Below, one piece after another: positions 54,668-58,493 of a stretch of 64,000 nucleotides of DNA. Origin of the DNA: Phycisphaeraceae bacterium D3-23 (GTDB lineage: Bacteria > Planctomycetota > Phycisphaerae > Phycisphaerales > Phycisphaeraceae); assembly GCA_039555135.1 (NCBI GenBank), contig CP114179.1, positions 124,001 to 188,000 of the forward strand, given 5' to 3'. The notes under the pieces were generated by a model. It saw only the letters and a program-made list of their open reading frames with translations. It was not told the DNA's origin and did no database searches. Each line of letters begins with the position of its first letter. The stretch's first letter is position 1. A program made the translations under genes and the position numbers.

Positions 54668-56416
<1,749 letters not shown>

Positions 56417-56636: not shown

Positions 56637-58493
56637 ATGACCCCGCCCCCGGAAACCGAATACGTGCCTACCGACCGCCCTGTCGTCACCCGCTTCGCGC
56701 CCAGCCCGACCGGGGCGCTGCACATCGGCGGTGCGCGCACCGCGCTGTTTGCGTGGGCCTTTGCCAAGAAGCACAGCGGCCGGTTCATCCTCCGCGTCGA
56801 GGACACCGACCTCAAACGGTCCAGCCCGGAATCGACCAAGGGCATCCTCCGCGACCTCGCCTGGCTCGGGCTGTTCTCCGACGAAGGGCCCAAGTACCCC
56901 TGCGGCAAGCACGGCTGCGGCTGTGGCAAGGCCGTGGACGACGCGGGCTACGACCCCTACGACCGCGACCGCCAGCTCGGCGACAACGGTCCGTACTTCC
57001 AGAGCCAGCGCGCAGCCGACGGTATCTACGACAAGTATGTCCAGTTGTTGCTCGACGCCGGCAAGGCCTATGAGGACGACGGGGCCGTGCGTTTCCGGAT
57101 GGATAAGACAATCGCGTTCACCGACGCGGTATTCGGCAACATCAGTGTTGGCCAGGACGACCTCGAAGATTTCGTGATCCGCAAGGGGGAGGACGGCGGG
57201 AAGCTGCCGACGTTCCACTTCGCCGTGGTCGTGGATGACGCCCTGATGGAAGTCACCCACGTCATCCGCGGGCAGGAGCACCTGAGCAACACGACCAAGC
57301 ACGCGGCGCTGTACGACGCCCTGGCCGAGGTCACCGGCGACGCCGACACGTGGCGGCGGCCGGTGTGGGTGCATACCCCGTCGATCATGAACCCCGGTGG
57401 CTCGAAGATGAGCAAGCGGGATAAGGCGAAGGCGGTACGAAATGCGATTGTGCATAATCCCGATGCAATTGACATGAATGAGGCAATCAACTTTGTCAAG
57501 ACAGAGATGTTTGGGTCACTGATTCCGATTGAAGAAAGTATGCCCGCTCAGTTGGATTCGTCCGTTAACAGTAAACTTATGTCTCGTATCCAGCATAAAG
57601 GTAATGTTCCTGATGACTTTGCCGGCTCACCAGTTACAGCAGCTACAGATGAGTACACCAGATTTATAGATGGCGAGAATGACAATGCCGTGATGGCATA
57701 CCTTCTTGCGATGTTCATTCAGGAAAATGTTCCTGAGTTGGATTTGAAGTTGCCCGAGATAGAGGTAGATGATTTTCGAGGAGCCGGCTACCTCCAAAGC
57801 GCCCTGCTCAACTACATCGCCCTGCTCGGCTGGAACCCCGGCGACGACATCGAGCACTTCGACCTGGATTTTCTCTGCGAGAAGTTCTCGCTGGAGCGGA
57901 TCGGCAAGAGCAATTCAACGTTCGATCGTACGAAGCTCAAGGACTTCAACGCGACGGCGGTCCGTGCGTTGGATATCGATACGTTTGTGAGTCGCATGAC
58001 GAAGTTTGTCGAGGCATACCGCCCCATCTGGGCTGAGGCGTCTGTGTTCACGGACGCTGCGAAGTGGCAGGCGTTCTGCTCTGCGGTGCAGGAGCGGACG
58101 CATGTGTTGCCTGAGCCGTTGGAGATGAATGCGTTTTTGATCGCGAATGATGACGCGGTTGCGTACGACTTCACGCCCAAGGCGATCCGCAAGGCGATGA
58201 TGGGCAACGATGCGCAGGGTGTGACGCTGCTTGAGGAAATGCTCACGGCGTTTGCGCAACTGCCGGCCGAGGGGTTTGGGGCCGCGGCGCACGAGAAGAT
58301 CAACGCGCTGGCCGAGGCGTCCGGGATCAACATGGGCAAATTTGCGCAGCCGGTGCGGATCGCGGTGTCCGGGGGGCCGGTGACGCCGCCGATCGATGTG
58401 ACGCTGGAGCTGCTGGGCAAGGAGGCGACGCTGGCGCGGATGCGGCGTTGTGTGGCGGCGGCAAAGGCGCATCTGGAAACGATATCACAATAG
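56637..58493 (+). CDS. gltX: Glutamyl-tRNA synthetase with an AT-rich internal insertion
   Basis: Charges tRNA-Glu. The 618-residue protein has the HIGH region RFAPSPTGALHIGGARTA at ~18-35, LRVEDTDLKRSSPES, and the KMSKS motif as SKMSKRDK near 257. It is much longer than the usual 470-500: a ~115-residue segment, about 265-381, separates KMSKRDK from the normal VDDFRGAGYLQSALLNYIALLGWNPG. The DNA of that segment is AT-rich (131 of 300 bases G or C at 57481-57780, about 44%, against about 68% in a flanking 60-base sample) and uses different codons. The frame is intact throughout. TACAAT lies 7 bases before the ATG. The C-terminal anticodon-binding part looks normal. Confidence 0.93.
   Translation: MTPPPETEYVPTDRPVVTRFAPSPTGALHIGGARTALFAWAFAKKHSGRFILRVEDTDLKRSSPESTKGILRDLAWLGLFSDEGPKYPCGKHGCGCGKAVDDAGYDPYDRDRQLGDNGPYFQSQRAADGIYDKYVQLLLDAGKAYEDDGAVRFRMDKTIAFTDAVFGNISVGQDDLEDFVIRKGEDGGKLPTFHFAVVVDDALMEVTHVIRGQEHLSNTTKHAALYDALAEVTGDADTWRRPVWVHTPSIMNPGGSKMSKRDKAKAVRNAIVHNPDAIDMNEAINFVKTEMFGSLIPIEESMPAQLDSSVNSKLMSRIQHKGNVPDDFAGSPVTAATDEYTRFIDGENDNAVMAYLLAMFIQENVPELDLKLPEIEVDDFRGAGYLQSALLNYIALLGWNPGDDIEHFDLDFLCEKFSLERIGKSNSTFDRTKLKDFNATAVRALDIDTFVSRMTKFVEAYRPIWAEASVFTDAAKWQAFCSAVQERTHVLPEPLEMNAFLIANDDAVAYDFTPKAIRKAMMGNDAQGVTLLEEMLTAFAQLPAEGFGAAAHEKINALAEASGINMGKFAQPVRIAVSGGPVTPPIDVTLELLGKEATLARMRRCVAAAKAHLETISQ

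Follow-up and report, generated by a model that had tools for sequence, protein, structure and literature searches.

AT-rich diversity loci, surface-antigen genes among them, are hypervariable and recur in separate lineages, and in-frame mobile inserts such as Rickettsia palindromic elements can interrupt an essential gene while keeping its frame open. Class I aminoacyl-tRNA synthetases have lineage-specific insertions known as conserved signature indels. For glutamyl-tRNA synthetase (GluRS), an excerpt of PMC4381286 names Phycisphaera mikurensis among the enzymes that lack the putative zinc-binding domain and does not use the term "insertion", and a survey of titles and abstract openings in the open-licence literature returned no account of the GluRS insert described here or of two states of it. 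Here, we describe gltX in a window of 64,000 nucleotides from Phycisphaeraceae bacterium D3-23. In this gene a domain beside the KMSKS loop exists in a second state in some lineages, in which it is usually longer, can hardly be aligned between congeners and lacks the codon bias of the genome.

An AT-rich segment within gltX

We read gltX from the ATG at 56637, a start picked by us, to a stop codon ending at 58493; the reading frame is open over the full gene, insert included (Table 1). The translation matched the Pfam domains tRNA-synt_1c (4.2e-66) and Anticodon_2 (6.1e-24), both over the cut-off, and has the class I catalytic domain and GluRS anticodon-binding domain of a bacterial GluRS, a HIGH-like signature (APSPTGALHIGG) and KMSKR. 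Both sides of the insert match solved GluRS. Between KMSKRDK and VDDFRG, which begins at 57765, the gene has a GC content of 0.445 and a GC3 of 0.469 (57426-57764), compared with 0.668 and 0.891 in the 768 bp upstream of KMSKRDK and 0.613 and 0.798 in the 726 bp from VDDFRG onward. Taken up to GYL, the 120 codons of the insert have a GC3 of 0.45, where the upstream part of the gene has 0.90 and the downstream part 0.82 (binomial p ~8e-26 for an expected 0.86), and on both sides the composition shifts sharply, within a few codons. These values confirm the AT-rich in-frame segment after KMSKS that an earlier note on this DNA had described, and its count of 131/300 (43.7% GC) at 57481-57780 agrees with the 0.437 that we measured over 300 bp from 57480.

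Table 1 Features of gltX and its insert; positions are those of the window
Feature	Position	Strand	Basis or remark
gltX, glutamyl-tRNA synthetase, 618 aa	56637..58493	+	ORF, translation, Pfam domains
KMSKRDK signature loop, left border of insert	57405..57425	+	GC3 drops within ~5 codons downstream
Inserted domain, 120 codons	57426..57785	+	between KMSKRDK and GYL (GYL from 57786); GC3 0.45
Variable middle of insert, 69 codons	57456..57662	+	class alignment; GC3 0.42
Insert part alignable with the class domain (FIDGEND... LPEIEVDDF)	57663..57785	+	AT-rich too, GC3 0.52 and 0.42
Non-inserted section C2 (codons +60 to +124 counted from GYL)	57966..58160	+	fast-evolving and mildly low in GC3 in AT-rich lineages; GC3 0.74 here

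The segment stands out against the genome as well. We scanned 864 kb (19% of the genome), in which only 0.18% of 300-bp windows were equally low in GC. Among 604 ORFs of at least 260 codons with a coding signature, called mechanically and including some wrong frames, the gltX insert was the lowest internal 60-codon dip in GC3 between GC-rich flanks (0.38); the next-lowest, at 0.48, looked by eye like read-through of non-coding sequence. The gltX domain was again lowest in G042, a second genome with the AT-rich state (400 kb, 301 ORFs), at 0.43 against 0.52 for the next. Composition singles out gltX in both genomes.

No second copy of the insert was found in its own genome at the DNA or protein level, the remaining matches having E values of 0.35 or worse. 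Pfam matched no family to the insert alone, and the single Rfam match, with an E value of 0.83, was far under the cut-off and outside the insert. We rejected an in-frame mobile element: the insert is present once, has no shared terminal sequence, and only repeats of 10-14 nt occur within the region. An assembly chimera is unlikely because the genome is a single contig and the AT-rich state is seen in further genomes too. The insert is translated, protein-coding sequence: the 16 AT-rich modules described below contain no stops in 1401 codons, against 74 expected, which also speaks against splicing or bypassing.

Two further observations concern the gene and its surroundings. A cysteine cluster, CGKHGCGC (56901-56924), lies between DEGP and GPYFQSQR; three cysteines are present in all four complete GluRS of the genus and at most two in the other 31 pattern-readable rows, and the cluster may be a genus-specific metal site. 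A GlnRS gene (54668-56416, minus strand) adjoins gltX. The two genes are divergent neighbors here and lie close together in several further genomes of the family, which suggests that they share a promoter region.

A class-wide GluRS domain

From 101 surveyed genomes we read GluRS in 69; two sequences (L013 and L015) were cut by contig ends, leaving 67 complete sequences from the order (families f1-f6), one of which (L040) duplicates another (L034). All 67 carry a domain of 56-120 aa between KMSKRDK and GYL, a site at which ordinary bacterial GluRS have about 10 residues (10 in two proteobacterial sequences). Two more of the 101 genomes (L081 and L086), not counted in the 67, have domains of 64 aa with a GC3 of 0.81 and 0.77 against 0.78-0.80 and 0.91-0.92 in their flanks. 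Of 20 loci read elsewhere in the class, 18 carry ~65-80 residues and the other two ~20. By contrast, all 19 GluRS that could be read from other classes of the phylum lack the domain and have the ordinary short form. Short forms L106, L108, L110, L115, L116, L118 and L128 were read by eye where the pattern missed or misplaced the border, as was class locus L111; no motif could be read in L109, L123, L126, L127 and L130, and L121 resembles a short paralogue. A single scan of genome contigs returned two distant loci only.

In its base form the domain is 56-75 aa long, matched in composition to the flanks and about as conserved as they are. The class alignment yields a common core, KAKAARKAAK...F..K.NDD...A..IA..L.L.LPEIDVADFR.SGYLP. 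The insert in the window fits the class frame (KMSKRDKAKxxR ... F-x-x-x-x-[ND]D ... LPEIxVxDF-x-x-GYL) and matches that of congener L010 with an E value of 2e-7. Collectively, these data show that the insert is an old GluRS domain specific to the class, situated between the KMSKS loop and the helix with which the following domain begins; the earlier suggestion that related GluRS carry an insertion at this spot thus proved true of the class in general. We rejected a recent foreign insertion because the domain is present in the congeners and throughout the order and the search for a source was negative, with no similar sequence in its own genome, in IMG/VR or in phage or plasmid records. Neither a donor nor absence from close relatives, the marks of a horizontally acquired segment, was found.

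Two compositional states, hypervariability and codon use

Domain GC3 is near that of the flanks in 51 of the 67 sequences and 0.22 to 0.42 below it in the remaining 16, whose modules have a GC3 of 0.40-0.59 next to N-flanks of 0.72-0.93. These 16 were picked by eye from the table and lie roughly -0.22 or further from their flanks; their number reflects a cut-off and not a gap because the scale is continuous (the 16th module lies at -0.22, the 17th at -0.21 and the next at -0.20). Fourteen come from f1 and two from f6, and the AT-rich state is found in each of the four complete GluRS from the genus of D3-23 (its own and those of three congeners). What the earlier note had named as speaking against its idea, close relatives that all carry a homologue of like AT-rich composition, is partly the case, in that the congeners carry one. 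A tree built from the flanks requires, at its supported branches, at least 10 changes of state; the count comes from a quick method, and the tree does not give their direction. GatB is not associated with the AT-rich state (16/16 vs 43/51, p 0.18), and GlnRS was found for at least 14 of the 16 AT-rich rows.

AT-rich modules tend to be long. Modules of at least 66 aa, a length cut chosen post hoc that makes p-values optimistic, make up 15 of the 16 AT-rich rows vs 14 of the other 51, the latter 14 mostly composition-matched. Across the 67 sequences domain length and GC3 are negatively correlated (Spearman -0.50, uncorrected for kinship), and of 10 independent pairs about 8 have the long module in the AT-rich row as well, while about two do not differ. 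At the start of its insert the congener L011 has a tandem repeat, AKIAKIAKIAK, possibly a trace of how the insert changes length.

The AT-rich domains are also hypervariable. Between AT-rich congeners (10 pairs) domain identity is 23-54% and N-flank identity 67-91%, compared with 48-97% and 81-98% between composition-matched congeners (11 pairs). L001 and L006, for example, are 91% identical in the N-flank, 26% in the domain and 93% in the 60 codons that follow the insert. In a comparison of the window's genome (G000) with G002 across 69 ORF pairs, chosen mechanically and including some wrong frames, the gltX insert gave the least conserved windows among genes with more than 60% identity, and GC3 was lowest there too. 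Taking all 2326 windows together, GC3 rises mildly with identity (Spearman 0.25); in the 13 windows with less than 20% identity, those of gltX among them, it averages 0.62. However, windows of other genes at 20-50% identity still have a mean GC3 of 0.85-0.88; divergence alone therefore does not lower GC3, and these control windows lend no support to low GC3 as an ordinary effect of fast evolution. The nearest analogue of the insert in its own genome is a linker in another conserved gene (contig C1, ~699.1-700.1 kb, minus strand), with 17% identity to G002 and a GC3 of 0.63.

One AT-rich pair, L007 and L008, can be aligned without gaps, over a shared module of 98 aa with a GC3 of ~0.40 in both; other pairs are not reliably alignable for dN/dS. 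With dN 0.38, dS 1.45 and dN/dS ~0.26, this module is under moderate purifying selection and not in free drift. The divergence of this pair and the identities between congeners support the earlier suggestion of a "fast-evolving lineage insert". The recurrence of the AT-rich state in separate lineages, and its link with hypervariability, extend that suggestion.

Section C2, which is not inserted, is fast-evolving too, and its GC3 shift is -0.12 in AT-rich lineages vs -0.03 in others (p 7e-4, an optimistic value for a section chosen after inspecting the profile). The shift toward AT in C2 is seen both at kept and at changed residues. GC3 is likewise depressed in the codons for consensus residues, to 0.60 vs 0.81 in the module and 0.70 vs 0.83 in C2. 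At fourfold sites the 16 AT-rich modules, pooled, use A, C, G and T at.26,.27,.22 and.25 (n=604), compared with.07,.51,.34 and.07 in their flanks (n=3700) and.11,.43,.37 and.10 in the other 51 modules (n=1741). When codon endings are ranked by flank preference, the modules use them at 0.28, 0.22, 0.24 and 0.26; codon bias is therefore absent and not reversed, because the flank-ranked codons are used about equally. In L009, the gltX of G042, fourfold sites in the flanks are C 0.85, G 0.03, A 0.10 and T 0.01, and those in the insert C 0.37 and A 0.34.

Explanations and comparison with known systems

The reading that we favor, and to which we give an even chance, is that a class-specific GluRS domain changes fast in some lineages and there escapes GC-biased fixation, a cause that we infer. 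The domain would be a peripheral appendage next to the active-site loop, and catalysis would not depend on its exact sequence. It is probably helical, judging by the impression that its sequence gives and by an AlphaFold model of three sequences that was itself useless (mean pLDDT 37.6). In AT-rich lineages, constraint on the domain would be relaxed or its variation favored. Alleles might then grow so different that homologous recombination stops across the segment. An excerpt of PMC4450053 proposes that GC-biased gene conversion accompanies recombination in bacteria; were recombination to cease, such conversion could be absent as well, synonymous sites could drift to near-equal bases, and the codon bias once lost might not be restored. 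Weighing against this reading are the windows of other genes that diverge yet keep a high GC3, the moderate purifying selection on the L007 and L008 module, the long modules with composition-matched codons and the graded scale of the state.

Under repeated import, AT-richer alleles from a donor pool would replace the domain through horizontal recombination, as at other diversity loci, and bring in both the odd composition and the unalignable sequence. This would fit the abrupt fall in DNA identity at both borders between congeners and the fact that the module nearest to that of L010 belongs to another genus (L039, 42% over 84 aa) and not to a congener. We nevertheless consider it unlikely. None of the records searched held a donor, C2 is depressed without being inserted, and AT-rich rows of different genera show no raised synonymous similarity at the borders (40 rows, 14 AT-rich). 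A recurring border sequence had been noticed; shared recombination borders between genera were rejected on the same 40 rows, AT-rich pairs being no more alike there. L007 and L008, moreover, keep a GC3 of 0.40, and an import into genus g9 followed by pure amelioration would need a donor or ancestor at ~0.17 (bootstrap -0.01 to 0.32). An old import ameliorating toward host composition is also unlikely because this value is far under the lowest flank GC3 among the 67 GluRS, ~0.5. Acquisition by transfer or recombination, which the earlier note had entertained, thus finds no support: beyond the missing donor and border signature, the insert keeps the conserved motifs of the domain, and the three further complete members of the genus share the AT-rich state.

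Could the codons themselves be selected? Unbiased codons might slow the ribosome past the catalytic domain so that the halves of the enzyme fold in turn, a longer insert requiring more of this slowing. The low GC3 of long modules, the depressed codons of conserved residues and the second, milder dip in C2 are all in keeping with this, yet codons are used evenly, without a shift toward the rarest ones, some long modules are composition-matched (L031, L030 and L024), and the hypervariability of the protein is left unexplained; we regard such selection as quite improbable. Conflict is a further candidate. The domain adjoins the KMSKS loop, within which Ser239 of E. coli GltX lies. According to an excerpt of PMC6581861, E. 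coli HipA phosphorylates that residue. Under diversifying selection the domain might shield or disguise the loop from an antagonist directed at GluRS, for instance a HipA-like kinase, and the fast variation of C2, a second section, would agree. However, a resident HipA shows no association with the AT-rich state (2/16 vs 9/51) and is absent from the window's genus, and the sole alignable AT-rich pair has the low dN/dS given above, so that we hold this arms race to be very unlikely. We are scarcely less doubtful of a version that joins conflict to lost recombination, in which an antigen-like hypervariable domain by the active-site loop, switched on in separate lineages, is varied by a putative GluRS-directed antagonist and the lost codon bias is the footprint of non-recombining alleles.

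If the favored reading, escape from GC-biased fixation, is true, a short stretch of one core gene repeatedly sheds a compositional bias that persists elsewhere in the gene. With genome, expression and chromosomal location common to flank and module, this would be a natural test of what keeps bacterial GC high, be it gene conversion, codon selection or mutation. It would also mark a site in GluRS where large changes in sequence and length are tolerated or favored, which bears on the way in which tRNA synthetases acquire new surfaces, and it would illustrate that odd base composition within a gene is no proof of transfer.

Like the conserved signature indels of class I aminoacyl-tRNA synthetases, the gltX domain is an in-frame segment at one site, general in its class and missing from the sister classes sampled; unlike them, it has two states, one of which is hypervariable and without codon bias. 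With Rickettsia palindromic elements it shares an in-frame position within an essential gene, but it is single-copy, has no shared element sequence and aligns in part with a class-wide domain. It resembles AT-rich diversity loci in being AT-rich, hypervariable and recurrent across lineages, and differs from them in that it is a sub-segment of a single-copy housekeeping enzyme, with no exchange seen between genera.
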